A DNA stretch of 64,000 bases from Clostridium brassicae (lineage in GTDB: Bacteria > Bacillota > Clostridia > Clostridiales > Clostridiaceae), in contig NZ_JAPQFJ010000001.1 in the NCBI RefSeq assembly GCF_026738875.1, positions 124,001-188,000 on the forward strand, given 5' to 3'. The notes beneath the pieces are model-generated. The model did not search any database, was not told the origin of the DNA, and worked only from the letters and a program-made list of their open reading frames with translations. Positions within the stretch are counted from its first letter, which is position 1. Each line of letters begins with the position of its first letter. The position numbers and the translations under genes are program-made. Of this stretch, positions 8,321 to 61,676 are shown piece by piece.

Positions 8321-8548
8321 ATGGAGAGAATGCCTTTGAGTTTTGCTAATATTGGGTGTAAAGTTATAATACATGATATAGCTGGAGGAGAAGATTTTTC
8401 TAAGAAGATGGTAGAGATGGGTTTTAATAAAGGTACAGAAATTAGAATTATAAGCAATAATAATGGACCAATCATAGTTAGATTAGGAGAGAGTCGTATA
8501 GCTCTTGGAAGAGGAATGGCACAAAAAATTATGGTTCAAGCTTGTTGA
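8321..8548 (+). CDS. feoA: FeoA-family ferrous iron transport protein, copy 2
   Basis: 75 residues, FeoA domain with 'CKVIIHDIAGGEDFSKKMVE', 'MGFNKGTEIRIISNNNGPII' and 'VRLGESRIALGRGMAQKIMV'. It is only loosely similar to copy 1, so the pair is probably not a recent duplication. GGGAGG lies before the ATG. It sits between feoA copy 1 (19 bases) and feoB (126 bases), the likely transcript running through all three. Confidence 0.92.
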   Translation: MERMPLSFANIGCKVIIHDIAGGEDFSKKMVEMGFNKGTEIRIISNNNGPIIVRLGESRIALGRGMAQKIMVQAC

Positions 8549-8674
8549 TGGCTCAAATGGAATATGTAATATAAGTAATTTTAAGATTATTGTTATAATA
8601 GGTTATTTTTTTAATTAATAAATGAGAATGAATATTGAAGTCATATAAGAGCGTTTTGCATAAGGGGGAGAATA

Positions 8675-10693
8675 ATGAGTACAATAGCTTTGGTAGGTAA
8701 TCCTAACTGTGGTAAAACTACATTATTTAATGCTTTGACAGGATCAAGGCAACATGTAGGTAACTGGCCAGGGGTTACAGTAGAAAAAAAAGTAGGAAAA
8801 TTAAAATATAAAGATAATGAAGAAGAGATAGTAGACCTTCCAGGAACATATAGCCTAGGAGCATATTCTGAAGATGAAGTTGTTGCGAGAAATTTTATTA
8901 TAAAGGACAATCCAGATGTAGTTATTAATGTAGTTGATGCTACTAATATAGAAAGAAACTTATATTTAACTACACAGCTTCTTGAAATGAATGCAAATGT
9001 AGTTGTAGCTTTAAATATGGTAGATGAAGCAAAAAATAGGAAGATAGAAATAGATATTGATAAATTATCGGCTGAATTAGGGGTACCTGTTATAGCTACT
9101 GTTGCTACTAAAAAGCAAGGAATAGAAGAATTGATTTCTAAAGTATTAGAATATGGAAAAAAAGGAAGGAATGCAAGAGTAGAAATTGCTTATGGTTCGG
9201 AAATTGAAAAAGAAATTTCGAATTTAAAAGCATCTCTTGAAGAAAGTGCTGCATCAATAGAATATCCAGCACAATGGACAGCTATTAAGTTATTAGAGAA
9301 TGATTCTTATATCCTAAACAACATAAAAGAAAAAGGAAATGTTCAAAAGGTATTAGATAAACTTTCACATAGTGTTAAGAGATTAACGGAATCATTAGGA
9401 TATGAACCTGAAATGGCAATTGTAGATAAAAGATATGAATTTATAGGTGAAGTAGTACAAAAATCTATAAAAAGATCAGAAAAATATGAGGAAACATTGT
9501 CAGATAAGATAGATAGATTTGTTACTAATAAATTTCTAGGAATTCCGATATTTGCTTTTATAATGTTTTGTTTATATCAGGCAACATTTGTTGTTGGACA
9601 ATTTTTTGCAGATACATTGGAAGAATGGTTTGGTGTTCTAGGAGAGAAAGCTGGAGAAGCTATGGCAAATTCAGGAGCTTCAGAAATGCTAACTTCTTTT
9701 GTTACAGATGGACTTATAAATGGAGTAGGATCGGTAATAGTATTCCTTCCAATAATAATGGTTATGTACTTATTAATTGGTGTTCTAGAAGATAGTGGAT
9801 ATATGGCTAGAGCAGCATATGTTATGGACAGATTAATGAGAGCATTAGGACTTCATGGAAAAACTTTTGTATCTATGATAATTGGAGGTGGATGCAACGT
9901 TCCGGGAATAATGGCTACAAGAACATTAGAAAGTAAAAAAGATAGAATGATAGCCATACTTATAAATCCTTTTGTTTCATGTGGGGCTAGACTTCCAATA
10001 TATTTAGTATTTATTGGTGCGTTTTTCTCTGCTAAGGGAGGATTAGTATTAATATCACTTTATGTAATAGGAATAATAGTGGCATTAATTGCTGGTAAAG
10101 TATTAAGTAAAACTTTGTTTAAAGGAGAATCTTCCTATTTCATCATGGAATTACCTCCTTATCGTGTACCTTCAGTTAAAAATGTTTTAATGCTTATGTG
10201 GGAAAAAGCTGGAGCATTCTTAAAAAAAGCAGGAACAATTATATTTGCTGTAGTAACATTACTTTGGTTTTTATCTGTTATACCTTTTGGAGTTGAACAA
10301 TACAGTGAAGCATCAGTTTTAGGTAAAATAGGAGGAATAATAGCACCTATATTTAAACCAGCTGGTTTTGGAACATGGCAAGCAGGTGTTGCTTTGTTTG
10401 CTGGTATAATAGCTAAAGAATCTGTTGTTGCTACTTTAGGTATGGTTTATGCAGGAGTTGAGGAAGGAGCTGCACTTACAGCAGCAATACAAGGAGCATT
10501 TACTCCTCTTACGGCTATGGCATTTATGATAATGACATTACTTTATACACCTTGCGCAGCTGCTTTAGGAGCAATAAGAAGAGAAACAAATTCACATAAA
10601 TGGGCTATATTCTCAGCTGTTTATACATTTATAATAGGATGGGTAGCAGCAGTACTTGTATATCAAGTTGGAAGATTAATAGGATTTCAATAA
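8675..10693 (+). CDS. feoB: FeoB ferrous iron transporter
   Basis: 672 residues, a usual FeoB length. The N-terminal GTPase has G1 'GNPNCGKTT' (8-16), G3 'DLPGTYSL' and G4 'NMVDE', then a helical GDI-like region, then a membrane domain from about residue 285 with two Gate-type repeats ('GGGCNVPGIMATRTLESKKD', 'NPFVSCGARLPIYLVF', 'FAGIIAKESVVATLGMVY'). The conserved cysteines in 'GGGCNVPG', 'VSCGARLP' and 'YTPCAAALGA' are present. It transports Fe2+ across the cytoplasmic membrane. GGGGGAG precedes the ATG, and a hairpin terminator follows. Confidence 0.97.
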   Translation: MSTIALVGNPNCGKTTLFNALTGSRQHVGNWPGVTVEKKVGKLKYKDNEEEIVDLPGTYSLGAYSEDEVVARNFIIKDNPDVVINVVDATNIERNLYLTTQLLEMNANVVVALNMVDEAKNRKIEIDIDKLSAELGVPVIATVATKKQGIEELISKVLEYGKKGRNARVEIAYGSEIEKEISNLKASLEESAASIEYPAQWTAIKLLENDSYILNNIKEKGNVQKVLDKLSHSVKRLTESLGYEPEMAIVDKRYEFIGEVVQKSIKRSEKYEETLSDKIDRFVTNKFLGIPIFAFIMFCLYQATFVVGQFFADTLEEWFGVLGEKAGEAMANSGASEMLTSFVTDGLINGVGSVIVFLPIIMVMYLLIGVLEDSGYMARAAYVMDRLMRALGLHGKTFVSMIIGGGCNVPGIMATRTLESKKDRMIAILINPFVSCGARLPIYLVFIGAFFSAKGGLVLISLYVIGIIVALIAGKVLSKTLFKGESSYFIMELPPYRVPSVKNVLMLMWEKAGAFLKKAGTIIFAVVTLLWFLSVIPFGVEQYSEASVLGKIGGIIAPIFKPAGFGTWQAGVALFAGIIAKESVVATLGMVYAGVEEGAALTAAIQGAFTPLTAMAFMIMTLLYTPCAAALGAIRRETNSHKWAIFSAVYTFIIGWVAAVLVYQVGRLIGFQ

Positions 10694-10699
10694 TATAAT

Positions 10700-10730
10700 A
10701 AGGGTGATCTAAGAGATCATCCTTTTATTT
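10700..10730 (+). terminator. Terminator after feoB
   Basis: Arms 10700-10710 and 10714-10724 pair over 11 positions (one G-U), followed by TTTATTT, seven bases past the stop codon. Confidence 0.8.
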
Positions 10731-10735
10731 AAAAA

Positions 10736-10767
10736 GTAATTGATAATGAAATTCAATTACATATCAT
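10736..10767. promoter_or_regulatory. Fur-box-like inverted repeat before the DUF2325 gene
   Basis: GTAATTG (10736-10742) and CAATTAC (10754-10760) bracket a TGATAATGAAATTCA core (10741-10755) that matches the Fur 7-1-7 consensus at 11 of 14. GATAAT and GAAATT hexamers are followed by inverted partners. It lies 24 bases before the start codon. Confidence 0.5.
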
Positions 10768-10783
10768 AAGGAGGATAGATAAA

Positions 10784-11071
10784 GTGAGTGTTTTAGTTGT
10801 AGGTGGAGATAAGTTAGGTAATATAAAAGAAAATTTAAGATTACAAGGATTTGAACAAATAAATCACTTGTCAGGGAGAAAGAAAAGTCAAAAATCTATT
10901 AAAGTTCCTGAAAATACAGATTTAGTTCTGGTCTTAACTGATTTTGTAAATCATCAAATTACTAAGGCATTAAAAAAGCAAATTAAATGTGACAGTACAA
11001 AAGTTTTATTTGCCAAGAGATCTTGGATTCATATAGAAAAATCATTAAATGAGTTTTTAAATGAATGTTAA
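10784..11071 (+). CDS. DUF2325 domain protein
   Basis: 95 residues. It begins 'SVLVVGGDKLGNIKENLRLQ', typical of the small DUF2325 proteins often found near feo and metal-responsive genes, and ends with 'KVLFAKRSWIHIEKSLNEFL'. The fold looks like a single Rossmann-like alpha/beta unit. It has no conserved cysteine pair. The GTG start at 10784 has AGGAGG nine bases upstream. The function is not known. A Fur-like box upstream and the feoB neighbour suggest iron-responsive expression. Confidence 0.8.
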   Translation: MSVLVVGGDKLGNIKENLRLQGFEQINHLSGRKKSQKSIKVPENTDLVLVLTDFVNHQITKALKKQIKCDSTKVLFAKRSWIHIEKSLNEFLNEC

Positions 11072-11076
11072 TAATG

Positions 11077-11139
11077 TTAGATTGCTTTATAATTCATATT
11101 AGCAGAAAAATACTGGCTACGAATTATAGAGCAATCTAA
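11077..11139 (+). terminator. Long hairpin after the DUF2325 gene
   Basis: Bases 11077-11095 pair with 11121-11139 over 19 positions with one G-U. The right arm is followed by TTTATTTAG. It is the probable terminator of the iron block. Confidence 0.75.
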
Positions 11140-11324
11140 TTTATTTAGTCTATAAATACTAATAGTAGAATTGATTATAAACATACTATATAAGTTGATC
11201 TAGAGTTCACACCCAATAAAACTAGTGATATAATGAACAGGATTATTTAAATTAGGTGAAGATTTAAAAATTCACATTAATTAAAATTTAAAACTTAATG
11301 TAGAAATGTATAGAGGGTGATTGT

Positions 11325-12065
11325 ATGGATTTTCATGGGAAAGTGGTTCTTATAACTGGGGGAAGTAGAGGTATAGGAAGAAGCATAGCATTAGAATTTG
11401 CAAAGTGCAATGCTTCTGTAATAGTTAATTATAGAAATAATGATAAAGAGGCCGAAAAGACTATAGAAGAAATAAAAAAGTTAGGTGGTTATTGTGAGAC
11501 AATAAAGGGTGATATTAAGGAATATGATTTTTCAAAAAAAATGATTCAGTACATAATAGATAAATACGGTAAAATAGACGTGCTAATAAATAATGCAGGA
11601 ATATCTAAAGTGGGCCTTTTTATAGATATGACAGAAAAAGATTTTGATGATATTATGGGTGTAAATTTGAGAGGTGTTTTTAATACTTGTAGTAATGTTG
11701 TAAAGCATATGATAGAAAGAAAAGAGGGGAATATAGTTAATATTTCTTCTATATGGGGTGGGGTTGGTGCCTCTTGTGAGGTTTTGTATTCTGCTTCAAA
11801 AGGTGGAGTGAATTCTTTTACAAAAGCATTAGGAAAAGAGCTTGCACCTTCAGGTATAAGAGTTAATGGTATACAACCTGGCGTTATAGATACAGATATG
11901 AATAAATGGATGTCACAAGAAGATAGAAAAGCTTTAATTGATGAGATACCTATATCAAGATTTGGTGAAGGTGAAGACATAGCTAAATTGGCAGTATTCC
12001 TTGCTAGCGATGAAGCTAAGTACATTACATCACAAATTATATCTGTAGATGGAGGGTATATTTAA
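11325..12065 (+). CDS. Short-chain dehydrogenase/reductase (FabG/YmfI-like)
   Basis: 246 residues, classical SDR. The cofactor loop 'TGGSRGIGRSIALEFA' (about 11-26), 'NNAG' near residue 88, a catalytic serine in 'NISSIWGG', and the 'YSASKGG' motif are all present. The C-terminus 'ITSQIISVDGGYI' is standard for 3-oxoacyl-ACP reductases and their relatives. 'NYRNN' after strand beta-2 suggests NADP(H). The substrate cannot be named: it is a lone gene with no fatty-acid genes near it and a terminator-like hairpin behind it. AGGGTGAT precedes the ATG. Confidence 0.88.
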   Translation: MDFHGKVVLITGGSRGIGRSIALEFAKCNASVIVNYRNNDKEAEKTIEEIKKLGGYCETIKGDIKEYDFSKKMIQYIIDKYGKIDVLINNAGISKVGLFIDMTEKDFDDIMGVNLRGVFNTCSNVVKHMIERKEGNIVNISSIWGGVGASCEVLYSASKGGVNSFTKALGKELAPSGIRVNGIQPGVIDTDMNKWMSQEDRKALIDEIPISRFGEGEDIAKLAVFLASDEAKYITSQIISVDGGYI

Positions 12066-12152
12066 GTTGGAAAAGTATATAATTTAATAAATATTTTAGT
12101 TTTATAATGAACTATTAGAAAAGTTAATATTTTAACAAAAATATTTCTCATA

Positions 12153-12211
12153 CCTTGCCAGATAAAGATAGGTAAATTCTATAACAATTTACCTATCTTT
12201 ATCTGGCAAGG
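12153..12211. terminator. 26-bp perfect hairpin between the SDR gene and the deoR-type regulator
   Basis: Bases 12153-12178 are an exact reverse complement of 12186-12211, with a 7-nt loop. GATTTTTA follows on the plus strand. It is unusually long and GC-rich for the surroundings. Termination of the SDR transcript is the simplest reading. Confidence 0.7.
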
Positions 12212-12249
12212 TGATTTTTATTTGTATTTATGCAAAAATGATGGATATG

Positions 12250-12267
12250 TTTTCGAATGTTCGAAAA
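12250..12267. promoter_or_regulatory. 18-bp perfect palindrome, possible DeoR-type operator
   Basis: TTTTCGAATGTTCGAAAA is a two-fold repeat (eight-base arms, 2-base centre). It lies about 105 bases upstream of the -35 of the deoR-type gene. TTCGAA-containing repeats are typical of DeoR-family operators. Confidence 0.45.
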
Positions 12268-12373
12268 TGTTAATTTTTTAATTAACGAAGTGTATTAATA
12301 ATACAAAAACGAACTTGATTCCCAAGATGTTAAGCTGTGAATACTGGTTTGATATGAATTAATACATAAACTA

Positions 12374-12435
12374 TTGACAAAATAAAAAACAAGGTATAAT
12401 ATTTAATTAACATAAACGAACATTAAAACGAAAGC
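12374..12435 (+). promoter_or_regulatory. Promoter of the sugar-acid regulator with downstream AAACGAA repeats
   Basis: TTGACA (12374-12379) and TATAAT (12395-12400) are 15 bases apart. Immediately downstream, two direct repeats AAACGAAC (12414-12421) and AAACGAAA (12427-12434) could be the operator; a third copy AAACGAAC is at 12306-12313. DeoR-family repressors commonly bind such CGAA direct repeats, so autorepression is plausible. Confidence 0.5.
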
Positions 12436-12511
12436 AAAAGAACAAATATGAATGAACTTATAAGAATAGTATGTAAAAATACACCATCAATATAAATTAA
12501 GAGGTGATAAA

Positions 12512-13270
12512 GTGCTTCCAGCAGAAAGAGAAAAATATATAATAGATAAGTTAGAAGAAATGGAAAGTATAAAAGTTGAAGATATTGCGAGTGAACTTAA
12601 TGTAAGTTTGATGACTATAAGAAGGGATTTTGAAAGACTTCAAGACAAAGGATTACTATATAGAAGTCATGGAGGGGCAGTAAAAAGAGATATATATCTT
12701 TTAGAACAATCTTATGACTTAAAAAAAATAAGTAATATAGATATAAAAGAAAAAATAGCTAAGAGGGCTTTAGACATAATAAAGGAAGGAGATACCATAT
12801 TTTTAGATGCAGGTACTACTAATTTTGAAGTGGCTAGATTAGTTAAAGAGATAAAGGATGTAACGATTATAACAAATGATTTAAAAATAGCCCTGGAGTT
12901 ATACCAAAATCATGTAAGGACTTTTATAGTAGGTGGAATAATACAAGAGGAAACAGGATGTGTTATGGGACCAACTGCTGAGGAATTTATATCCAATGTT
13001 AAAGTTAATTTAGCTTTTTTAGGAACTTCTGGGGTGAGTTCTGATTGGAGGTTATCTACTCCTACTTTTGAAAAAGCCAGCCTAAAAAAGAAAATAATAA
13101 AATCTGCATCTTACTCAGTAGTTCTAGTAGATAATAGTAAGTTTAATAAAGAGTCTTTTGTGAACATAGCTTCTATTGAAGCTGTGGATGCTATTATTAC
13201 TGATAAAAAAATTGTTGAAAGTGAAAGAAAATACTTAGATTCATTAAATGTAAAAGTAATAAATGTTTAA
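12512..13270 (+). CDS. DeoR/GlpR-family regulator of the sugar-acid operon
   Basis: 252 residues. The N-terminal winged helix has 'IKVEDIASELNVSLMTIRRD' and 'KGLLYRSHGGAV', the standard DeoR signature. The C-terminal sugar-phosphate sensor domain has 'IFLDAGTTNFEVARL', 'TIITNDLKIAL', 'GTSGVS' and 'VVLVDNSKF'. It would respond to a phosphorylated intermediate of the kinase/dehydrogenase pathway encoded next. The GTG start follows GAGGTGAT. It lies 222 bases ahead of the kinase gene, same strand, and no terminator was seen between them. Confidence 0.9.
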   Translation: MLPAEREKYIIDKLEEMESIKVEDIASELNVSLMTIRRDFERLQDKGLLYRSHGGAVKRDIYLLEQSYDLKKISNIDIKEKIAKRALDIIKEGDTIFLDAGTTNFEVARLVKEIKDVTIITNDLKIALELYQNHVRTFIVGGIIQEETGCVMGPTAEEFISNVKVNLAFLGTSGVSSDWRLSTPTFEKASLKKKIIKSASYSVVLVDNSKFNKESFVNIASIEAVDAIITDKKIVESERKYLDSLNVKVINV

Positions 13271-13491
13271 TTTTTATTATATGGATATGGGGACAATTAT
13301 TAATTCTCCTATGGACATAAAGGGAAAGTTACCAAATGTAAGATGAATCTTATTTTGTTTACTTTCATATTAGAATATAATGGATGCGGCCTCTGTAAAT
13401 AAGTTATTCTAATGCTCGGAGCAAGTACTATCATAAGCAGAATTTCGTTAAGACTAGGAATAATTTGATAATAGCTTAAGGGGGAAAATAA

Positions 13492-14802
13492 ATGATTAAC
13501 TATGTTGTTATAGCAGATGATCTTACTGGAGCTAATGCTACAGGAGTTTTAATAAAAAAGCTAAATTTAACACCTGTGACTATTATGAACTCTATGGAAA
13601 AGGATAATTTAGAAAAAAATAAATTTGATACAGTACTTTATTCTACAGATAGTAGAGGAGTAGATAAAGAAGAAGCATACTGTAGAGTTTATAAGGCTAC
13701 TGAATTATTCAGTAATCCCTGTGTAAATGTTTACGGAAAAAGGATAGATAGTACATTAAGAGGAAATTTAGGTGCAGAAATAGATGGAATGTTAGATGCA
13801 TTAGGAGATGATACTGTTGCAGCGGTAGTTCCAGTTTTCCCAGATGCAGGAAGGGTTGCGGTGGGAGGATACCTTCTTGTGAATGGAATAGCTTTAGAAG
13901 AAACAGATGCTTCAAAAGATGGAAAGAGACCTATAAATTCTTCTGTAATCGAAAAATTGATAAAACAGCAAACAAAGTATGAAATAGATTCTATATATCT
14001 TGAATCTATTAAGGGTAAGAAGGAAATTTTAAAAGAAAGAATACTAGAATTATATAGTAAAGGTAACAGAATTATAGTGTTTGATGCCTTAAATAATAAC
14101 GATCTAGAGGTTATATCTGAAGCTTTAGTAGATACCAAAATAAAATTTATATGTGTAGACCCAGGGCCATTTACAGCAGCAACGATAGCACAGTATGAAT
14201 CTTTAAAAGAAGAATCACAAAAGAATGATAATAAAGTTCTTATGGTTGTAGGTAGTATAACTAATACTACAAGAAAACAACTGGATAAGGTGTGCAAAGA
14301 ATTAAATTTGTTAAAAGTGGATATAGAAGTTAAAGATATATTAGGTAGTTTAGATGAGAAAGAAGATGAAATAAAAAGAGTGGTAAATCAAGTTATACAA
14401 AACAAAGAAAATTATGATGTGTTTTGTATAGTTTTAGATTCTATTTACGAAGAAATAAGGATTGATTTAGATAGAGAGGCAAAAAACAGGAATACTAACA
14501 AGGAATTTTTAACTGAGATAATAAATAATTCTGTAGCAGAAATTAGCTATAGAATATTGAAAAATATAAAAGATATTAAAGGTATTTTTAGTAGTGGAGG
14601 AGATATAAGTATAAGTATTTGTAAGAAATTCAATTCTGTGGGATTGGAACTTTTAAGTGAAGTAATACCACTTGCAGCCTATGGAGAACTTATTGGAGGG
14701 GAATTCCCAAAAATGAAAATTGTAAGCAAAGGAGGGATAGTAGGAGATATAAATGGAATGAAAGTATGTGTGGAACATTTATTAAAAGCTATTAATGATT
14801 AA
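13492..14802 (+). CDS. dtnK: Four-carbon acid sugar kinase family protein (DtnK/OtnK-like)
   Basis: 436 residues, the usual length for the former DUF1537 family. N-terminal substrate domain: 'YVVIADDLTGANATGVLI' (3-20) and 'YGKRIDSTLRGNLGAEIDGM'. C-terminal nucleotide domain: 'VVGSITNTTRKQLDKV', 'GIFSSGGDIS' and the closing 'KGGIVGD'. Characterised members phosphorylate D-threonate, D-erythronate, 3-oxo-tetronates or similar acids using ATP. Its partner just 12 bases downstream is PdxA2-like, the pair known from D-threonate catabolism to dihydroxyacetone phosphate. D-threonate or D-erythronate is therefore the best guess; the symbol is tentative. Confidence 0.85.
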   Translation: MINYVVIADDLTGANATGVLIKKLNLTPVTIMNSMEKDNLEKNKFDTVLYSTDSRGVDKEEAYCRVYKATELFSNPCVNVYGKRIDSTLRGNLGAEIDGMLDALGDDTVAAVVPVFPDAGRVAVGGYLLVNGIALEETDASKDGKRPINSSVIEKLIKQQTKYEIDSIYLESIKGKKEILKERILELYSKGNRIIVFDALNNNDLEVISEALVDTKIKFICVDPGPFTAATIAQYESLKEESQKNDNKVLMVVGSITNTTRKQLDKVCKELNLLKVDIEVKDILGSLDEKEDEIKRVVNQVIQNKENYDVFCIVLDSIYEEIRIDLDREAKNRNTNKEFLTEIINNSVAEISYRILKNIKDIKGIFSSGGDISISICKKFNSVGLELLSEVIPLAAYGELIGGEFPKMKIVSKGGIVGDINGMKVCVEHLLKAIND

Positions 14803-14814
14803 GGAGGAGTCAAT

Positions 14815-15816
14815 ATGAGTAATAGACCAATAATAGGAATACCTATAGGAGATCCAGCTGGCATAGGACCAGAGATAGTAGTTAAGGCATTATCTGAAAA
14901 GAAAGTTTATGATAGATGCAATCCTGTATTGATAGGAGATAAAGATGTTATAGAACAAGCTATGAAGTTTTGTGATTTAAAATTGGACATTAATATAATT
15001 AAAAATCCAAAAGAAGGCAAATTTAACTTAGGAGCTATAGATTTAATAGATTTAAATAATGTTGATATAGATAAATTAGAGGTAGGAAAAGTCCAAGCTT
15101 TAGGTGGAAAAGCCGCTTTTGAATATATAAAAAAATCTGTAGAAATGACTATGGATGGACAAATAGATGCAGTAGCCACAACACCTATAAATAAAGAGTC
15201 TTTAAAATTAGCTAAAATAAATTATATAGGACATACGGAGATTTTAGCAGACCTAACAAATACAGAAGATCCTCTTACTATGTTTGAAGTTAGAGGTATG
15301 AGGGTATTTTTCCTGACAAGGCACGTATCTTTAAGGCAAGCATGTGATTTAGTAACTAAAGAAAAAGTCTTAGACTATATAATAAGATGCTCTAAAGCTT
15401 TAGAAAAATTAGGTGTAAAAGATGGAACTATGGCTGTAGCAGGATTAAATCCACATAGTGGAGAGCATGGACTATTTGGAGATGAAGAAATGAAAGAAAT
15501 AGTTCCAGCTATAGAGGAAGCTAAGAGAAAGGGATATAAGGTAGAGGGGCCAATAGGAGCAGATTCAGTATTTCATCTAGCTCTTCAAGGAAGATATAAC
15601 TCAGTATTATCTTTATATCATGACCAAGGACATATAGCTACAAAAACTTTAGATTTTGAGAGAACTATTGCGGTTACAAATGGAATGCCTATATTAAGAA
15701 CTTCTGTAGATCATGGAACAGCATTTGATATAGCAGGAACAGGACAAGCTAGCTCTGTAAGCATGGTAGAAGCTATAGTTTTAGCTGCTAAATATTCACC
15801 TAAATTTGAAAAATAG
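14815..15816 (+). CDS. pdxA2: PdxA2-like 4-phospho-D-threonate/D-erythronate dehydrogenase
   Basis: 333 residues, PdxA family: '[20 protein letters not shown]', '[11 protein letters not shown]', '[10 protein letters not shown]', '[16 protein letters not shown]' and '[15 protein letters not shown]'. The histidines in 'GHTE', 'YHDQGH' and the metal site are kept. PdxA2 enzymes oxidise and decarboxylate 4-phospho-tetronates to DHAP with NAD+, rather than making vitamin B6. The gene directly follows the four-carbon acid kinase (12 bases, AGGAGG before the ATG), with no B6 genes nearby, so the catabolic role is preferred. Confidence 0.88.
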
Positions 15817-35385: not shown

Positions 35386-37164
35386 ATGGAAGTAAAGGAA
35401 AAGCTAAGATTACTAAGAGAAGAGATGAAGAAAAAAGGATTAGATGCTTATATTATACCTAGTTCTGATGCTCATCAAAGTGAGTATGTTGCTGATCATT
35501 GGAGATCAAGAGCATGGATATCTGGATTTACTGGTTCAGCAGGTACTTTTGTTATTACCATGAAAGAAAGTGGTTTATGGGCAGATGGAAGGTATTTTAT
35601 TCAAGCTGATAAACAACTTAGTGGAACAGAAACTAAGTTGTTTAAAATGAGACAACCTAATGTTCCTACATATACAGAGTGGCTTGGAGATTCACTTTCA
35701 CAAGGAGAATGTGTCGGAGTTGATAGTAGTGTATTTTCATGGTCTCAAATAAGAGAGATGAAAGAACATTTTGATAAAAAGGGAATAAAAATTAATGGTG
35801 ATTATGATTTAATAGATTTAATATGGGAAGACAGACCAGAGATACCTATGAGTGAAGTTTATATCCATGATGTGAAATATTGTGGGAAAAGTACTTTAGA
35901 AAAGTTAAAAATAGTAAGAAATTATATGGATAGAATAGGAGCACAACATTATTTATTAAGTTCTTTAGATGATATAGCATGGTTATTTAATATAAGAGGA
36001 AATGATGTAAGTAATAATCCAGTAGTGGTTTCTTATGCATTAATATCAGAAAAAGATGCTATATTATTTGTAGATAATAAAAAAATAAGTAAAGAAGTAT
36101 CAGAAATTCTAAAAGAAAATGGGGTTCAAGTAAAAGAATACTTAAAAATAGAGGAATATCTAAATAACTTAAATTCAAGTAATGCTGTTTATATAGATCC
36201 TAATAAAGTAAGTTTAAAACTTTATGATTCTATTCCAAAAAAATGTATTAAAGTAGAGGAAAGAGATATTACTACTACACTAAAATCAGTTAAAAATGAA
36301 GTTGAAATTAAAAATTTAAAAAGATGTCATATAAAAGATGGTGTGGCTATGGTAAAATTCCTTCGTTGGTTGGATGAAAATGTAGGAAATGTTGATATTA
36401 CAGAAATTTCTGCTTCCGACAAGTTAGAAGGATTTAGGAGAGAGCAAGAACATTTTATAGAAACTAGTTTTGATACTATAGCGGCATATAAAGACCATGC
36501 ACCTATGATGCATTATAAAGCAACTGAAGATACAGACTATTCTTTAAAAAGAGAGGGTATGTTATTAGTAGATTCAGGTGGACAATATTTAGATGGAACA
36601 ACAGATATTACAAGAACAATTATTTTAGGAACTTTAACTGAAGAAGAAAGACATGACTTTACATTAGTATTAAAAAGTCATATGGCTTTAAGTAATTTGA
36701 AATTCCTATATGGGGCTACTGGTAGTAATCTTGATGTAATAGCTAGACAGCCAATATGGGAAGAAGGTATTGACTATAAATGTGGTACAGGACATGGAGT
36801 AGGTTTCCTTCTTAATGTTCACGAAGGTCCTCAAAGATTTAGTCAAGATTTAAATAATGCAGTATTAAAGGCAGGAATGATTATTACTAATGAACCTGGA
36901 ATTTACAAAGAAGGTAAGCATGGTATAAGAACAGAAAATGAATTGTTAGTTGTTAAAGACGAGGAAACAGAATTTGGTCAATTTATGAGATTTGAGCCTG
37001 TTACTTATTGTCCAATAGATTTAGATGGAATAGACATAAATATGCTTACAGAAAAAGAAAAATTATGGTTAAATAACTATCATAAAAAAGTATATGAAAC
37101 TCTTTCATCTTATTTAAATGAAGAAGAAAGAGAATGGCTTAAGAAAGAAACAAGAACTATATAA
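35386..37164 (+). CDS. pepP: M24-family Xaa-Pro aminopeptidase (aminopeptidase P)
   Basis: 592 residues from the ATG at 35386, which has GGAGGGG five bases upstream; an in-frame ATG at 35338 lacks one. It is the long three-domain form: two creatinase-like N-terminal domains ('IPSSDAHQSEYVADHWRSRA', 'SLDDIAWLFNIRGNDV') and a C-terminal pita-bread domain with the metal ligands in 'LLVDSGGQYLDGTTDITRT', 'GTGHGVGFLLNVHEGPQ', 'NEPGIYKEGKHGIRTENE' and 'FEPVTYCPID'. It removes N-terminal residues preceding proline, with a two-metal (Mn) centre, in the cytoplasm. The symbol is generic. Confidence 0.95.
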   Translation: MEVKEKLRLLREEMKKKGLDAYIIPSSDAHQSEYVADHWRSRAWISGFTGSAGTFVITMKESGLWADGRYFIQADKQLSGTETKLFKMRQPNVPTYTEWLGDSLSQGECVGVDSSVFSWSQIREMKEHFDKKGIKINGDYDLIDLIWEDRPEIPMSEVYIHDVKYCGKSTLEKLKIVRNYMDRIGAQHYLLSSLDDIAWLFNIRGNDVSNNPVVVSYALISEKDAILFVDNKKISKEVSEILKENGVQVKEYLKIEEYLNNLNSSNAVYIDPNKVSLKLYDSIPKKCIKVEERDITTTLKSVKNEVEIKNLKRCHIKDGVAMVKFLRWLDENVGNVDITEISASDKLEGFRREQEHFIETSFDTIAAYKDHAPMMHYKATEDTDYSLKREGMLLVDSGGQYLDGTTDITRTIILGTLTEEERHDFTLVLKSHMALSNLKFLYGATGSNLDVIARQPIWEEGIDYKCGTGHGVGFLLNVHEGPQRFSQDLNNAVLKAGMIITNEPGIYKEGKHGIRTENELLVVKDEETEFGQFMRFEPVTYCPIDLDGIDINMLTEKEKLWLNNYHKKVYETLSSYLNEEEREWLKKETRTI

Positions 37165-37177
37165 TAAAATATGAAGT

Positions 37178-37440
37178 AATGAATAACGGCAAAGAAATAG
37201 TTTTTCTAGATATATGTAGTTATCTATTAAACCTTCAGTACGCAAAGAAGTACTAAAGGCGTAGCCTTCTAAAAGTTCTACCCTCGCTATGGGGAGTCCA
37301 TTCCCCAGCTCGGCTGTCAGAGTCCATTCTGACAATTACGCACTTTTAGAATTCTACACCTTAAGTACTTCTAATTGCTACTTCAAAGTTTAATGTGCTA
37401 ACTACGTATATAAGAAAAACTTATTCCTATGCCTTGATTT
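37178..37440. repeat. Palindromic structured repeat, copy A
   Basis: About 263 bp, similar to the reverse complement of 42089-42353 along its whole length. The element is itself an imperfect inverted repeat: the outer ~100 bases on each side pair (both begin GGCA...GAA-TA). In the centre are two short hairpins, TGGGGA/TCCCCA (37290-37307) and GTCAGA/TCTGAC (37316-37333), each with a GTCCAT loop. No transposase is present. It is MITE-like or a structured RNA/DNA element. The frame on the minus strand here is a shadow of the repeat. Confidence 0.85.
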
Positions 37441-37553
37441 ATTATCAATAATATAGTTTAAAATATATATTGGGGAGAGATAGGAAGACTAAAGGATTAA
37501 AAGCGATTAGTGACTTTAAATTTAATAGACAGTGAACAATTGATAAAATAAAT

Positions 37554-37592
37554 AGGGCTATGATGGGAATTTAATTCCATTATAGTTCTTTT
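37554..37592 (+). terminator. Terminator-like hairpin downstream of repeat copy A
   Basis: GGGCTATGATGG... pairs with CCATTATAGTTCT (with G-U pairs) across the ATTTAATT centre, followed by TTTTTTTG. The rest of 37600-37940 is non-coding; TATAAT at 37702-37707 may be the -10 of the next gene. Confidence 0.6.
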
Positions 37593-37949
37593 TTTGTTTT
37601 GATTTTTTGTAGTTAATTTAGGTAGGTTTTGCTTAAAAAATGAGGTAAAAAGGCAAAAACTAAACATAGTGATTTTTTATGCATAATATATAAGCTTATG
37701 GTATAATACTAGAGCGGTAATAACTGGTTAAATAAATAAGAATTGTAAAGGGATAAACATAATTAGCGATAAATATAATTGTAGAACTTTGATTGTGATA
37801 ATTGAAGTTATGGTAGAAGGTTAATTGAAAGGGAACAGCTTTTGTACTAACTTTGTTATTTTTAAATAGGTATAAATAATGTATAAACAAAGACGCAATA
37901 AGCCTAAGGTTTTACAGATAAAAAATAATGATCAACAGGGGGAGAAAAT

Positions 37950-39683
37950 ATGTCAAAAAGAAAGATAGAATTACTTATAACATTTCTATTGTTAAATACG
38001 ACAATCTCAAATGTGGAGATTGTTAATGCCTATGATTTAAAAACTAAAGATGGGCAAACGCATAGTTATAAAACTGAGGAATTACAAAAGTCCCTAACAA
38101 AGACAAAAGATGAAAGGCAACGTACTAAATTGTATAAACAATTTGCAGAAAATGTCTCACAATCTGAGTATTTAGGAGTAAAGGATAAGGATGGAAAATA
38201 CATCACTTACGATAATGTGGTTAAAGAGTATAGTGAAGGTAAAAGAAGATTAGGAGCTAAAACAGTGGCAAAAGATATGTCAAGTATTTTAACTAAATAT
38301 TCTAACAATTATAAAACTTTTGGAACTAAAGAGGACTTACCACAAAATAAAGTGTGGAAGATCACATTTAACCATGAAGTAGATAGAACAACTATGAATA
38401 CAAATAATTTAAAAGTTGTAGATAGTGAAGGTAAAGTACAAGAAATTAAAATGGAACCGCATAGTGGTAATTTAAAGGTATGGGATATAAAACCTGCATC
38501 AGAGTGGAAAGCAGGTGAAACTTATGCATTAATAATGAATACAAATATAACAACAAATCTAACAAGTCATAAAGGCTTAAAAAAAGATGTAGTATTTGTA
38601 TTCAGTATTAAAGCAGATGCGGGAACAACTAATCCTGGTAAAGAATTTAGTAAATCAGAAATGCTATCTATACTGAAAGATATTAGCGGTGGTTACTATG
38701 ATGACAGTGTAGAGTATGATTATATGGGTATGTGGAATTTAGGAAAAGAAACAAAATATGGATGTGTTAATAATTCTATTGATGTCTACAAAGAAAGAAT
38801 GGAAAGAGGTACAAGGTTAGAAAATAAATATTTCAATAATCCGATTTATTCCAATCTGACAGATCCTTATCTATATGAAAAGTTACCTAATACAACAGTA
38901 AGTTTCAAAGGACTCAGCAGAAGAAATCTAGGGGATTCTAAAAATATCCAACTATACACTTCAAATAAAAAAGATAGATCAGATTTACCAAAAGAAATAC
39001 CTAATTTATATCTTAAACCATACGATACTACAGATGGTTATGCATTTACCATAATGGAAGGGAAGAGTGAAACTTTATCTAAATATATCTGGAGACCAGA
39101 TTTAGAAAAGGAAATGGTAGAAGAGATAAATAAGTTGAGAATATCTAAAGGTGCTAAACCTTTGACAGTAAAAAATGACTTAGTAGCTATGGCTAAATTC
39201 TCAGCAAAAAGAAGCCATTTAGGTTATAGTCACAATAGTTTAATATCGAATACTTTAGAGTTTAGTGTAAGAGGAGGACAACTTAATTGGTGTAGAGGAT
39301 GTGTACCTTTTCCTTATGACTATGGTGATTTAGATACCGATAGACTTATGAACGATGAGGACACAAAGGGACATGATGCTATATATCCTATAGAAGATAA
39401 TACCAATAAACTATTTAATTACCCAAATAAAGTTAGAGCATTCAGTGATGTAAGTAATTATATTATAAGTGCTAAGGGATTTTTAAAAGAATGGAAAGAT
39501 GAGACAAACTATCAACCACATGGTAGAGGAGAGCAGTTTATAAAATACTCTAAAAAAGCTAATATAGAGAGAGACTTTTTAGATCCTAATCTAAAATATA
39601 TTGGTGTGGGAAGTATATATGAAGGTTCAAGACATAAAGCAGATATTAATGGTATGACCGGTGTCTTTGTGATAACGGAGTAG
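37950..39683 (+). CDS. Secreted CAP/SCP-domain protein with Ig-like domain
   Basis: 577 residues. Signal peptide about 1-27 ('LLITFLLLNTTISNVEIVNA'). Residues ~125-220 look like an SbsA-type bacterial Ig-like domain ('KVWKITFNHEVDRTTMNTNN', 'SEWKAGETYALIM'). The C-terminal ~185 residues are a CAP domain: 'EMVEEINKLRISKGAKPLTV', 'MAKFSAKRSHLGYSHNS' and 'NPNLKYIGVGSIYEGS'-like end. It contains an inserted Cys pair ('WCRGC'). Extracellular; CAP proteins have varied, often unclear functions. GGGGGAG precedes the ATG. It pairs with the next secreted gene 8 bases on, and both lie between inverted palindromic repeats. Confidence 0.82.
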   Translation: MSKRKIELLITFLLLNTTISNVEIVNAYDLKTKDGQTHSYKTEELQKSLTKTKDERQRTKLYKQFAENVSQSEYLGVKDKDGKYITYDNVVKEYSEGKRRLGAKTVAKDMSSILTKYSNNYKTFGTKEDLPQNKVWKITFNHEVDRTTMNTNNLKVVDSEGKVQEIKMEPHSGNLKVWDIKPASEWKAGETYALIMNTNITTNLTSHKGLKKDVVFVFSIKADAGTTNPGKEFSKSEMLSILKDISGGYYDDSVEYDYMGMWNLGKETKYGCVNNSIDVYKERMERGTRLENKYFNNPIYSNLTDPYLYEKLPNTTVSFKGLSRRNLGDSKNIQLYTSNKKDRSDLPKEIPNLYLKPYDTTDGYAFTIMEGKSETLSKYIWRPDLEKEMVEEINKLRISKGAKPLTVKNDLVAMAKFSAKRSHLGYSHNSLISNTLEFSVRGGQLNWCRGCVPFPYDYGDLDTDRLMNDEDTKGHDAIYPIEDNTNKLFNYPNKVRAFSDVSNYIISAKGFLKEWKDETNYQPHGRGEQFIKYSKKANIERDFLDPNLKYIGVGSIYEGSRHKADINGMTGVFVITE

Positions 39684-39691
39684 GTGAGTAT

Positions 39692-42046
39692 ATGTTAAAA
39701 CTGAAAAAAATAAATAGTCTAGTTTTAAGTTTTTTATTTATAAGCACTCTAATTATGCCTACTCAAGTTAAAGCTGAAGGTGAAATAATTACTGTAGTTG
39801 GTGAAAGTGAAACTGATTTACCTCAAATTATAGAGAGTGATTCACAAGGAAGAAAATTAGAAAGAATAAGTCCTATTAGATCAGGAAAACCTATTACATT
39901 ACCAGAGATAAGTTTATCCTACAATAGAGATTTAAATATGAAATATTATGTAAAGTGGATAGAAGATAGTCCAACAGAAGGTCATTTTATAGGTAAACAA
40001 ACAAATACTTGGGATGAAACAAAAAGCCCTATAAAGCAACCACCAGGAACGCCTAGTGGTGAAAATTGGACAAAAGGTTATCAAATTGGTTATAGTACTT
40101 TATACGAACCAAATAGTTTGGGCATACGTTCTTTGATTTATGGTGATTTTAGTGTAGCCAGTAATCCTGCAATAAGGGATGGTTCTGATTTCTTTAATAA
40201 GACATTCTTATCTGATGACGCTGTTGGGTATGTAATGAAAACAGGTAAATCTTTCACAGATAGTATTCAATTTATTGTAGATGAAGAGGAATTTAAAAAA
40301 CAACTATTAGCCATTACTGGTATTGAGGTTACTGAAAGTAGTTTAAAATCTCTTATGGTTGTAAGAACAGCTTACCCAGAAAGACGTATAGGTAAAGATC
40401 CTGGACTTGAGTTTGGAGTTTATAAAGATAATTTAAGAGGACCTAGAAATGTGTGTATGATTCCAGGCGTAAGATATCCAAAAGCCTGGTTAAATTCTGA
40501 TAACTGGCATCCCACTATGAAAGATTACTATTGCTCTGGGGAATATGGGCAACAAACATTCAATTATTATTCACCTCCGATAACTAGAAATCCAAAATTG
40601 GAAGCTGATTATAAGGTAGTTACAGGTGACGAAGAGGATGAAAACACACATCCAGGTGGTAAAGTTGGACCTATAGTATTTAAACCTAATTCAACTACTT
40701 GGAGTAATAGAGGTAAAACTTCAGAAGGTATTGGAGCATATAATGTTAAAGTGGAATATAAAGGAGATACCAAAATAGTTTATAAAGGTACTGTAAAAAG
40801 TAAAAAGAAAGTATGCCATACAAATTCAGAAGGTCATAAAAGTTGTCATTATGATTATTATACAAAACATTTTGATGTAGTGTATGATTTGGACAGGATT
40901 GAAGTTAATGGGGATGCTAGTAAAACATTTACTGGCAAAAAAAGTGAAGTTGATATAACTCACGAAGGTGAAAATCTTGGTTTATCTGCAAAAGGATTTT
41001 GGAAAAAAGCTAAGTATAGTGTACCTTCAATGCCAGGAAGTATTTATGATACAGATATACCAGGACCACCGCCTAATCCTGTTGGTAAATCGGGAGATTA
41101 TGATATTGACTGGACTATGCCAACAATAGAAATAGACAAAATAGCTCATGACCGAGCAATTGATTCTTTAACTTTTGGAATAGATATTGATGATAATCTA
41201 GAGCCAGATAATTGTTTAACTGTAACAGCTCCTACTGAATATGGTGTGGATGGTACTTTGGATAATCAAACAAAAGAGCATAGAAATATAACATATAGTG
41301 GTATACCTAATGAGGATACTATTTATGAATTTCATTATGATATAGAAGATGAAGCTACAAATAAAAGATTTTGTAAGTTTAAAACTTCTATTATCAAAGA
41401 ATATTGGGAACAATTAATTGATACTTATAAAGATGATTTAGACTTAGAAGTCCCTATTAAATTCTTATCGAATAGTGATACACAAACTTTAAAAGGCTTT
41501 AAGCGTAGTAAAACTATTAACTTCGATTCTTGGAGAGGGATACCTACTGAAGTCTGGTATAAATTTACAGATAAGACGGTGAATTTTATTAGAGTTATAC
41601 ATTATGATGATCCCAATATTCCAGTAATCGATGAAAACGGAAATAAATTATATCCTAAAGATAGCGAATTCCAAGACTCCCCAGGATTAGCTAATAAGAT
41701 AGGTGTAGATGTTGGAAGTAATAAAGAAATAACTAACTATGGAAGATTATCTATGCAAAAACCTATTAAAACTGTAGATAATAATGATGGAACTTACACT
41801 AATTATTATGTTAATGGTGATGTAAGAACATTTGATAAAGCTACAGGAAAAATTATATCGGATAAGCAAAAAGGATATGGGGAGATTTTACCAGAACTAA
41901 CTGAGATTAGTGGTAATAAAACTATATACCATACAGGTAACCGATATACTATTACAATTATAGAATATGATAGCTATACCGATATAACTATAAGAGATAG
42001 ATTACAAAAAGTAGTAGAGCAAACAAGAATAAATAAGAGATGTTAA
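39692..42046 (+). CDS. Large secreted orphan protein
   Basis: 784 residues. Signal peptide about 1-28 ('SLVLSFLFISTLIMPTQVKA'). I do not recognise the rest. It is rich in Tyr, Asp, Lys and Pro, has no membrane anchor, sortase motif or cell-wall repeats at the C-terminus, and contains scattered cysteines ('RNVCMIPG', 'YYCSGEYG', 'VCHTNSEGHKSCHYDYY'), the last a possible metal or disulfide knot. Segments such as 'YDIDWTMPTIEIDKIAHDRA' look like beta-rich adhesion-type modules. AGGTGAG precedes the ATG, 8 bases after the CAP gene stop, so the two are co-expressed. Possible cell-surface or matrix factor; function unknown. Confidence 0.7.
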   Translation: MLKLKKINSLVLSFLFISTLIMPTQVKAEGEIITVVGESETDLPQIIESDSQGRKLERISPIRSGKPITLPEISLSYNRDLNMKYYVKWIEDSPTEGHFIGKQTNTWDETKSPIKQPPGTPSGENWTKGYQIGYSTLYEPNSLGIRSLIYGDFSVASNPAIRDGSDFFNKTFLSDDAVGYVMKTGKSFTDSIQFIVDEEEFKKQLLAITGIEVTESSLKSLMVVRTAYPERRIGKDPGLEFGVYKDNLRGPRNVCMIPGVRYPKAWLNSDNWHPTMKDYYCSGEYGQQTFNYYSPPITRNPKLEADYKVVTGDEEDENTHPGGKVGPIVFKPNSTTWSNRGKTSEGIGAYNVKVEYKGDTKIVYKGTVKSKKKVCHTNSEGHKSCHYDYYTKHFDVVYDLDRIEVNGDASKTFTGKKSEVDITHEGENLGLSAKGFWKKAKYSVPSMPGSIYDTDIPGPPPNPVGKSGDYDIDWTMPTIEIDKIAHDRAIDSLTFGIDIDDNLEPDNCLTVTAPTEYGVDGTLDNQTKEHRNITYSGIPNEDTIYEFHYDIEDEATNKRFCKFKTSIIKEYWEQLIDTYKDDLDLEVPIKFLSNSDTQTLKGFKRSKTINFDSWRGIPTEVWYKFTDKTVNFIRVIHYDDPNIPVIDENGNKLYPKDSEFQDSPGLANKIGVDVGSNKEITNYGRLSMQKPIKTVDNNDGTYTNYYVNGDVRTFDKATGKIISDKQKGYGEILPELTEISGNKTIYHTGNRYTITIIEYDSYTDITIRDRLQKVVEQTRINKRC

Positions 42047-42088
42047 GTATTGATAGAGTAGTTATTTTATCGATATTTAATTATGAAA

Positions 42089-42353
42089 AAATCAAGGCAG
42101 AGAAATCAGATTTTCTTATATATGTAGTTAGCCGATTAAACTTTGAAGTAGCAATTAGAATTACTTAAGGTGTAGAATTCTAAAAACCCGTAATTGCAGG
42201 AATGGACTCCTGCAGCCGAACTGCGTCATGGACGACGCATAGTAAGGGTAGGATTTTTAGAAGGCTACGCCTTTAGTAATTCTTTGCGTGCTGAAGGTTT
42301 AATGGATAACTACATATATTTAGAAAAATCTATTTCTATGCCGTTATTCATTA
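42089..42353. repeat. Palindromic structured repeat, copy B (inverted relative to copy A)
   Basis: About 265 bp, inverted relative to 37178-37440. Arms from 42098 and 42340 inward pair imperfectly over ~100 bases. Central hairpins are GCAGGA/TCCTGC (42196-42213) and TGCGTC/GACGCA (42222-42239), both with loop ATGGAC, the complement of the GTCCAT loops in copy A. The stems differ from copy A but every change is compensated. It separates the secreted-protein pair from the convergent 2-hydroxyacid dehydrogenase. Confidence 0.85.
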
Positions 42354-42368
42354 TGTCACAACATTTTT

Positions 42369-43325
42369 CTAAAGTTTCATAAGGTTTTGTGGATTACCTT
42401 CAAGCCATTTTGTTATGTTGCCAAAAGTTATTTCTGCTCTTTTAAGCATAGATTCATCTGTAGCAAAAGCAGCATGAGGTGTTAGAACAACATTTTTGGC
42501 ATTTAAAAGTGGGTGATTTGTAGGAATTGGAGGTTCCATTTCAAATACGTCTATTCCAGCTCCAGCAATCTTTTCATTGTTTAATGCATTAGCTAAGGCT
42601 TCACTATCTACAACTCCTCCTCTTGCTGCATTTATTAGAATAGACGAAGGTTTCATTAAAGATAGATTTTTTTTATTTATAAGTAGTTTTGTTTCATCTG
42701 TAAGAGGAACATGTAAAGATACTATATCGCTTTCTTTTAAAAGGTTTTCCAAAGTAACATATGTAATGCCTATGTTTTTAGCATCTTCTCTTTGAGTCCT
42801 GCTATAGCCTAATAGTTTGCACCCAAAAGCCTTACCTATTTCAGCAACTCTTTTTCCAATAGAGCCTGTACCTATAATCCCTAGAGTTTTACCATAAAGC
42901 TCATTACCAACTAAACCTGCTTTAGTTTTGGATTCTCTTGTAGCTATATCACATGGGATTATGTTTCTAAAGGTTGATAGGATAAGACCAAAGGTTAATT
43001 CTGCAACAGAATTAGTAGAGTATCCGGCTGCATTACAAATAGTAATACCTTTTTCTTTGCAAGTAGCTATATCTACATGGTCTATACCTGTAAAAGCAAC
43101 AGATATCATTTTTAAGTTAGGAGCAGACTCTATTATATCTCTATTTAATGGAGAATTTGCAATGATAAATATATCTGCTCCACTAGCTTGAGCTAATAAA
43201 CCTTCATTAGTTTCTATTTTTTTGTAACATGGTACAAATTCATGTCCTTTAGATGTGAGTGATTTAGATAAAGTTTGTACATCATTTTGGCTTATTCCTA
43301 GTGGTTCTAACATAACAATACGCAT
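42369..43325 (-). CDS. D-isomer-specific 2-hydroxyacid dehydrogenase
   Basis: 318 residues. NAD-binding loop 'LGIIGTGSIGKRVAEIGKAF' (about 147-166); catalytic Arg in 'INAARGGVVDSEAL', Glu in 'GAGIDVFEMEPPIP' and His in 'LTPHAAFATDESM', so the active site is complete. It belongs to the phosphoglycerate/lactate/hydroxypyruvate dehydrogenase superfamily; the substrate is not clear. It lies downstream of the IolR-like gene, same strand, but a terminator-like hairpin is between them, so it probably has its own promoter. A GGAGTG-type site precedes the ATG. Confidence 0.9.
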   Translation of the reverse strand: MRIVMLEPLGISQNDVQTLSKSLTSKGHEFVPCYKKIETNEGLLAQASGADIFIIANSPLNRDIIESAPNLKMISVAFTGIDHVDIATCKEKGITICNAAGYSTNSVAELTFGLILSTFRNIIPCDIATRESKTKAGLVGNELYGKTLGIIGTGSIGKRVAEIGKAFGCKLLGYSRTQREDAKNIGITYVTLENLLKESDIVSLHVPLTDETKLLINKKNLSLMKPSSILINAARGGVVDSEALANALNNEKIAGAGIDVFEMEPPIPTNHPLLNAKNVVLTPHAAFATDESMLKRAEITFGNITKWLEGNPQNLMKL

Positions 43326-60181: not shown

Positions 60182-61676
60182 TTTTCCTTATCCTTCTTTC
60201 TAGTACTCTCTGATTTTTTACAGCTCCAAGGCCTAGTGCAGTGGTATCATGAAGAGTTTGTTCTCCTCTATCTAATTTTCTCATTTCAGATTTTTTTACA
60301 AGGTATCCAGTAATTCTTATGACATCACAGTCACTGCAATATAAGGAAAAATATCTTATACCTTGCTTGAATGAACCTTTAATTATATCTAATATAAATT
60401 CTGGATTTTTCTTTACTGTTTCATCAAAAGCAAATACATCGCCTATACCTGATGGAAAAAATTTATGGAATTTAGCTGATTGAATTAAGTGTTCATAAAG
60501 TTCAGGTTCTTCACCTATTGGTATTCTGCATCCAGGACTTATGCTGTTATCACTATCGATTCCTACTTGAGCATGTAATAAGAAATTTTCGTTTGTTATA
60601 GTACAATAAGGATTCTTATGATTTTTAACTTCTTGATGAAGTCTTTCAATTATTTTATATCCTAAATTATTGGCTTCTTCCCCATGACCAAATCTATCTT
60701 TTGATTTAATTGGCTTCAATAAAGTATTAACACATTCAGCAAGTCCAAACATACCAAACATAGCTGTGAAATTATCCTTACATATTAAACCTTCCTTAAC
60801 AAGAAAATTACTTTCAAAAAATCCACTTTCTTCTACCAAAAATTTGATTCTTTCATCTATATAATTTGTCATTCTTTTTACTGCATCAGGAAGTATATTA
60901 TCAACAAAATCATTTTCATCTATAGCTTTTTTAGAAAGATATGCTAAATTTAATCTTACCAAAGTATAACTTCCTCCACCAATAGGAAGACCGTTGTAAC
61001 AACTAGCAATGCAGTAGCTATTATTAAACTCTTTTGAAAAAATTTTATCATTAGCAAAACTAGGTTTTGCGGTTATTAAAGATGTTTTTATTGCATCAAT
61101 TGCATAATCATCTGGAGTTTTATCATTGTATTTAATTGTTATATTAGGGATAGAAGTTTGAAGCTCTCTTTGAACTTTTAGTATTATTCTTCCTGCTTTT
61201 GTATCAAAAGGTCCTATGTTAGCATGGCAAAAAGAATCTGTTATAGTTCTATCTATATGAGTTAAAAATAATTTTATTGCAGTATAAGCTTCTTCTTCAT
61301 TTATTACAAATGGTTCAAGTAAAGAATCTATATTACCTATATAAACAGGAAATGTGGTAATGGAAGGTACATGTTTGTAGAGTATTAACAGGTTATTTAT
61401 TGCTTCCCAGATATTTGTTGCAGGTTTTAATTTTAGAAAACAACAACCATTCTTCATAAATTTATCATAATCAGGGACTATATATCTAGGTCTATAAGGA
61501 GCATGACCCTCATTAAGGTCACAAATTATGCCTTCATCCATATAAGCTTTAACTTCTTTGTTTATGTTTAATACATTTAAAGTGTTTTCAGCTGCTTTTG
61601 CAAGAAAAATTACTTTTTGTTCATAAGTTAGGGTCTTATCCTTAACAATATTTAAAATACTATCCATATACTTCAC
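60162..61676 (-). CDS. yjjI: YjjI-family glycyl radical enzyme (function unknown)
   Basis: 504 residues, matching YjjI (DUF3029) rather than PflB length. The C-terminus carries the radical loop 'VIRITGYLVKKSEMRKLDRG' (R-x-x-G-Y, radical Gly in 'TGY'). Other segments: 'GHAPYRPRYIVPDYDKFMKN', 'FGHGEEANNLGYKIIERLHQ' and 'CSDCDVIRITGY'. YjjI reactions are unknown; the fold resembles pyruvate formate-lyase and anaerobic ribonucleotide reductase. First gene of a three-gene minus-strand operon with yjjW and a DeoR-type regulator, implying a sugar- or nucleoside-derived substrate. A GGAGTG site precedes the ATG. Confidence 0.9.
   Translation of the reverse strand: MKYMDSILNIVKDKTLTYEQKVIFLAKAAENTLNVLNINKEVKAYMDEGIICDLNEGHAPYRPRYIVPDYDKFMKNGCCFLKLKPATNIWEAINNLLILYKHVPSITTFPVYIGNIDSLLEPFVINEEEAYTAIKLFLTHIDRTITDSFCHANIGPFDTKAGRIILKVQRELQTSIPNITIKYNDKTPDDYAIDAIKTSLITAKPSFANDKIFSKEFNNSYCIASCYNGLPIGGGSYTLVRLNLAYLSKKAIDENDFVDNILPDAVKRMTNYIDERIKFLVEESGFFESNFLVKEGLICKDNFTAMFGMFGLAECVNTLLKPIKSKDRFGHGEEANNLGYKIIERLHQEVKNHKNPYCTITNENFLLHAQVGIDSDNSISPGCRIPIGEEPELYEHLIQSAKFHKFFPSGIGDVFAFDETVKKNPEFILDIIKGSFKQGIRYFSLYCSDCDVIRITGYLVKKSEMRKLDRGEQTLHDTTALGLGAVKNQRVLERRIRKNGASSN

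Follow-up and report, generated by a model that had tools for sequence, protein, structure and literature searches.

Bacterial miniature inverted-repeat transposable elements (MITEs), among them RUP, NEMIS, Bcr1, ERIC, YPAL, Nezha and EFAR, measure 70 to 300 bp according to the parts of PMC3733652 considered here, and repetitive extragenic palindromic (REP) repeats are units of 20 to 40 bp in the corresponding passages of PMC3733652, PMC3116915 and PMC8049555. Here, we describe a repeat family found in a stretch of 64,000 nucleotides of Clostridium brassicae (contig NZ_JAPQFJ010000001.1, positions 124,001 to 188,000 of the forward strand; referred to as the window), in which two inverted palindromic copies of the repeat, A and B, bracket a pair of genes in a slot at positions 37160 to 42371. 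Other systems that resemble this arrangement are those of site-specific inversion and cassette exchange, including integrons, which are characterized by short inverted-repeat sites, random orientation, exchange inside the site and variable cargo. The sites of tyrosine or serine recombinases have the exchange point in their middle.

The elements described here resemble bacterial MITEs, as presented in those parts of PMC3733652, in being non-coding and intergenic, with inverted ends of about 18 bp and a strong secondary structure. However, they are usually longer than 70 to 300 bp and some of them have genes; in addition, neither an empty site nor a target duplication was seen, and it is the contents and orientation that change, at sites that stay fixed. 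REP and REPIN repeats with the REP-associated tyrosine transposase (RAYT) are likewise palindromic, located downstream of genes and provided with ends able to supply a TAG stop (PMC3733652, PMC3116915, PMC8049555), but the units here span hundreds of bases with inverted ends, outside the unit size of REP repeats, and exchange between fixed slots is not described in the passages of these three sources considered here. Among the papers listed in our literature searches, none was recognized as a description of the present repeat. A composite transposon also has its cargo between two inverted copies; in contrast, the flanking copies here are without a transposase, and a sister species has other cargo at the same place. 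The earlier note on this DNA had likened A and B to the ends of a composite mobile element without a transposase. Indeed, no transposase frame is present in either copy, and the bracketing of exchangeable cargo held up, other genes being found in the sister species; a strict composite transposon was rejected, since A and B have no transposase frame and the same place is occupied in that species. The inversion and cassette systems share all of their traits listed above with the present family, and differ from it in that the slots here are many and dispersed rather than confined to one locus or array, and the cassettes mostly non-coding.

A comparison of the own genome (G000; a draft of 4.10 Mb in 71 contigs) with that of the sister species (G006; 3.89 Mb in one contig) showed that the sites, as judged from their sequences, are fixed and common to both species, and that element content and orientation are randomized between the two. 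To trace the sites, G006 was queried with the joined flanks of 18 elements from G000, and G000 with those of 12 elements from G006. None of the 22 distinct sites compared was empty, i.e., joined, in the other genome; at 19 of them, both flanks were located, apart from each other, and the L138 site contained a 191-base remnant in G000. The earlier note had suggested looking for empty sites and target duplications; the former did not turn up among these sites, nor did the latter at the junctions inspected.

Contents were compared at 20 orthologous pairs sampled from the family (20 elements of G000 and 27 of G006). The flanks of these pairs are 86 to 100% identical, and 18 of the 20 have support from both sides (L107 and L108 from one). 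At 19 site pairs, the orientation was the same in 8 and inverted in 11, L141 being left out of this count because both of its ends are right-type. The mean similarity at orthologous sites was 0.381, compared to 0.417 (standard deviation, 0.022) for random pairing, and the former value was reached or exceeded in 4771 of 5000 pairings; with either strand allowed and without L141, L107 and L108, the corresponding values were 0.390 and 0.431, and 4777 of 5000 pairings reached or exceeded the former. The partner at the true site ranked 3 to 27 among the 27 G006 elements, and a better match was found in another slot, often over the full length at 87 to 92%, which is near the divergence of the flanks. 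Old repeats misplaced by the draft assembly, or sites paired wrongly, might be invoked given that some of the 71 contigs begin or end in the repeat; nevertheless, the error would have to extend to all 20 pairs despite their flank identities and mostly two-sided support, G006 is one contig, and copies are usually about 10% or more apart and hence distinguishable, so that we regard this explanation as very unlikely.

The elements are bounded by TAGAATAATRTTRYGACG and its inverted copy, often at a stop codon. These ends were aligned by their flanks, and 28 strict ends of 40 were used; a looser set of 30 ends gave the same outcome. Bases 1, 2 and 3 of the end agree between the species in 26, 25 and 20 of the 28 ends, where 21.0, 20.0 and 12.3 were expected (p ≤ 0.002), and bases 4 and 5 hardly vary. 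Base 6 agrees in 18 ends, with 18.0 expected, and the variable bases 10, 13 and 14 agree in 12, 15 and 15, with 14.0, 15.3 and 15.0 expected. On both sides and in both orientations, the flank and bases 1 to 3 are inherited with the site, and the sequence from base 6 inward is not, which suggests that content is exchanged between fixed slots inside the inverted end. A fixed exchange point in a short site, as in site-specific recombination, was thus found by comparison alone, with the step between bases 3 and 6. The base frequencies of 83/94 ends assign CAYAATA to an outer half and TRTTRYG to the inner half opposite it, with the center between bases 5 and 6; the end appears to resemble an imperfect inverted recombination site cut midway.

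These data also bear on RecA-type gene conversion among dispersed repeats, combined with inversion between the inverted ends. A replacement that reaches base 6 on both sides, with almost no common sequence outside the tract and no gradient over the variable bases 10, 13 and 14, fits poorly with such conversion, and flips of whole elements would need exchange within about 18 common bases. The copies do have long similar stretches and mosaic modules in common, and gene conversion has been proposed for REP repeats, going by a title in the reference list of PMC3733652; on balance, we consider this explanation improbable.

Alternatively, the elements might be ordinary MITE-like ones, mobilized in trans by a transposase that very strongly prefers these places; old copies would leave or be deleted, and others would enter at the identical base, in one orientation or the other. 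As in MITEs, a body lacking coding capacity is enclosed here by terminal inverted repeats: only one frame of at least 70 amino acids from a methionine was present in the 47 elements compared, in L195. Moreover, a near-identical variant of 704 to 707 bp, located at several G006 sites (L125, L126, L130 and L131 are 97 to 99% alike), looks recently spread, and the flank consensus CAYAATA could reflect a target preference. As described above, however, none of the 22 sites is empty, and end bases 1 to 3 remain with the site rather than arriving with the element. The flank length is unchanged at most ends inspected, and no transposase belonging to the family was found, although no systematic search was made. 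Taken together, movement by such a transposase seems rather unlikely to us. A TA-target (IS630/mariner) origin, raised by the TA at the ends, was rejected, with no duplication in its support.

The explanation that we prefer, and to which we would give about an even chance, is that site-specific recombination directed by the ends exchanges and flips cassettes between fixed slots at gene ends. An enzyme would recognize the inverted ends and exchange the DNA inside them, and a cassette would either flip in place or give way to the cassette of another slot. With the exchange point in mid-site, the CAYAATA half would stay on the side of the site and the TRTTRYG half would go with the cassette. Where cassettes carry genes, the slots could double as places of cargo exchange, in this case for a CAP-domain gene and its partner. 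More tentatively, and with a confidence that falls a little short of even, these slots might constitute a genome-wide docking system, in which tens of fixed gene-end slots, each with a short recombination site at its bounds, are older than the species, hairpin-rich cassettes and gene cargo are shuffled and flipped by a dedicated recombinase, and a third species combines these ends with different cassette bodies, in part at genes that it has in common with the other two.

Several points weigh against end-directed recombination. No recombinase was found, none having been searched for systematically; the CAYAATA/TRTTRYG register ranks third and fourth of 269, the top two being the right end's own palindrome; and an element of the third species (G003) gave no terminator-like match. 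At 3 of the 22 sites (L107, L108 and L125), the element was seen adjoining one flank only, and the right ends of about 10 compared elements were set by flank matches and not by a recognized end. Furthermore, the G000 sequence is a draft, and drafts tend to break down at repeats; the exchange is deduced from a comparison between two species, whose genomes are the only two with this body. If the exchange is real, intergenic repeats that usually pass for dead MITEs would turn out to form a cassette system, in which the chromosomal addresses are kept and the stored content, including genes for secreted proteins, is changed. Such a system would also provide a way, open to testing, in which genes could be exchanged at fixed places with neither phage nor plasmid involved, as well as an example of gene ends that are exchangeable and orientation-free.

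The same ends were observed in G003, where the end pattern had 39 matches, compared to 2 for the reversed pattern; G005 had 13 versus 3, and the other four species had 4 to 6 versus 0 to 3. Seventeen G003 elements set by hand (L198 to L214) measure 225 to 332 bp and have the same inverted ends as those of G000 around other bodies. For six of the 18 G003 loci fetched, the position is the 3′ end of a gene that also serves as a slot in G000 or G006, two of them at the same codon; these six common gene ends could also have arisen by independent insertion at a preferred target. As a separate observation, L198 to L214 have CCAGTAACCAGT-like arms around a central hairpin.

The family was surveyed by BLAST, sequence patterns and a structure count. 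The earlier note had also proposed a search for further copies, and these were plentiful. With A as the query, 49 matches were obtained in G000; with the left 81 bases as the query, there were at least 29 left ends with at least 48 bases aligned, plus two shorter ones, in G000. G006 has at least 40 left ends. These counts are lower bounds, as 40 of 77 candidates were scored in G000 and 40 of 106 in G006. The palindrome was present in 2 of the 58 genomes searched, own genome included, namely G000 and G006. The full element is longer than the palindrome, which is its left part only, and A and B, both cut off on their inner side, hold just this part. To the right of the palindrome come a tail and a long hairpin of terminator-like form, and the right end of the element is itself a palindrome of 31 bases; a segment of about 50 bases from the conserved tail is found again, inverted, some hundred bases further on. 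The compared elements measure 239 to 1128 bp, with 41 of the 47 within 400 to 850 bp. Three elements of G000 (L022, L024 and L195) have kept the outer arms of the palindrome around a different middle module with AATAGTGAATAGT-like repeats. On the right side of L116 (G000, contig C4, about 61210 to 61260), an adjoining palindrome, ACAATAATATTGCACTGCAATATTATTGT, resembles a variant right end. The G006 element L147 is interrupted at its positions 762 to 2663 (contig C1, 2935261 to 2937162) by a DDE_Tnp_1 transposase gene of 315 amino acids, which is probably a separate insertion sequence.

As the earlier note had reported, A and B are similar copies in inverted orientation: positions 37201 to 37455 and 42074 to 42328 are 85% complementary over 255 nucleotides, and the pairing extends through 37172 to 37205 and 42325 to 42358 at 88%. 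Each copy proved to be an imperfect palindrome as well, with inner arms detected inside both A and B and folds that lie 11 to 12 standard deviations below those of dinucleotide shuffles on either strand (none of 200 shuffles was as good). Differences between the copies, such as AAGTACT in A and AATTACT in B, are visible in the alignment in both arms of each copy, and are those that separate two subfamilies of the repeat. Covariation was evaluated on 28 full-length copies from the two genomes, partial copies being omitted. Their consensus fold has 86 pairs, 17 of which changed on both sides, and 121 compensated cells were counted, compared to a shuffle mean of 41.3 (none of 500 shuffles was as high) and to 3 to 15 in slid controls; related sequences may, with this tool, beat every shuffle without structure. 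The compensated stem changes claimed in the earlier note are therefore real.

That note had further taken the covariation to imply selection on a folded DNA or RNA, or a repair process that homogenizes the arms; in this respect the covariation stood, and selection on an RNA found no support. One selected RNA strand should favor G.U among the half-changed pairs on that strand. In the 77 pairs that the two strand models have in common, the half-compensated cells were 31 for G.T and 27 for A.C (21 and 22 pairs, respectively); since they show no strand bias, they lend no support to an RNA, and RNA function was dropped as the leading idea. A structured RNA as the selected product of the palindrome would agree with the compensated stems, which carry rather conserved loops, and with the minus strand of A and B, which folds 12 to 13 kcal/mol better; the union of both strand models gives a mild sign for this strand too (110 G.T and 136 A.C cells), in pair sets for which each model picked pairs that fit its own wobbles. 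Nonetheless, the half steps are symmetric on the common pairs, elements of either orientation occur at one and the same gene end, and Rfam gave no match at gathering scores anywhere in the window, and we attach hardly any credence to a selected RNA. We infer that the arm-to-arm covariation reflects upkeep of the palindromes at the DNA level; compensated changes between copies of a repeat need not imply a functional RNA.

The position of the elements at gene ends was evident in both genomes, where 23 of 39 left ends start within 12 nucleotides of the stop of a frame that has at least 100 codons and lies upstream on the same strand, with the stop at or inside the element start in 16 of the 23; these counts take in orthologous sites of both genomes and are thus not independent. 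As background, 1.27% of the positions in the window are equally near such a stop. Both genes flanking the window slot are stop-codon cases. In the one case seen in G001, which has no palindrome match, a plain hairpin with a T run comes right after the dehydrogenase stop. The full element L107 has 6 terminator-like matches over both strands, compared to 0.3 in shuffles, and the A side of the window slot (37150 to 37950) has 2 terminator-like hairpins, compared to a shuffle mean of 0.3. A terminator role is likely for some cassettes, as predicted from these hairpins, and with terminator-like tails on both strands of at least one full element, a cassette may end transcription in either orientation.

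Four slots differ in cargo between G000 and G006. The window slot measures 5,212 bp in G000, where it holds the CAP-domain gene and its partner, and 14,372 bp in G006, where it holds other cargo (L145, positions 664 to 15041). This cargo includes a CAP gene with about 30% identity and a partner frame that is shortened, and it also encodes a radical SAM/SPASM protein, AgrB, a GHKL kinase and a LytTR regulator. Further frames in this cargo are presumably ABC-transporter-like, and we take the whole to resemble a peptide-signal or peptide-antibiotic cluster. In G000, the L074 slot (4.5 kb), preceded by a gene that we assume to be mnmA-like, contains partner and CAP genes and a gene for 158 amino acids; its counterpart in G006 is occupied by an element of about 0.78 kb. 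The 158-amino-acid family corresponds to DUF6985, as tested on the G006 relative. The third slot, which follows a presumably biotin-carrier-like gene, has a partner/CAP-type set in G006, with additional frames that we take to be IS66-like, and a DUF3784 gene in G000. The fourth has a YetF-like gene in G000 that is absent from G006. Among eight genomes of the genus, all four close CAP loci lie inside slots; later matches had E values of 6e-11 or worse and covered short parts.

The window slot itself (37160 to 42371; 5,212 bp, no strand assigned) extends from a left-type end in the stop region of an M24 peptidase gene to a left-type end at the stop codon of a dehydrogenase gene, and left ends are present at the same two gene ends in G006. 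Copy A (37160 to 37495, plus strand) comprises the inverted end TATAATAAAATATGAAGT (37160 to 37177, plus strand), in which the M24 gene has its TAA stop (37162 to 37164), the palindrome (about 37172 to 37440) and part of the tail, and is cut off on its inner side. No match to positions 37155 to 37500 was found in plasmids and phages. Copy B (42073 to 42371, minus strand) comprises the inverted end TAGAAAAATGTTGTGACA (42354 to 42371, minus strand), the first three bases of which form the stop codon (TAG) of the dehydrogenase gene, and the palindrome (about 42090 to 42358); its likeness to other copies ends at 42073 to 42077. The second cargo gene (39692 to 42046, plus strand; 784 amino acids) encodes a probable secreted partner that has no match in Pfam or NCBIfam. 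The first (37950 to 39683, plus strand; 577 amino acids) encodes a probable secreted protein with Big_5 and CAP domains and a weak match, below cut-off, to the YkwD family. A terminator-like hairpin with a T run (37554 to 37589, plus strand) lies between A and the cargo genes.
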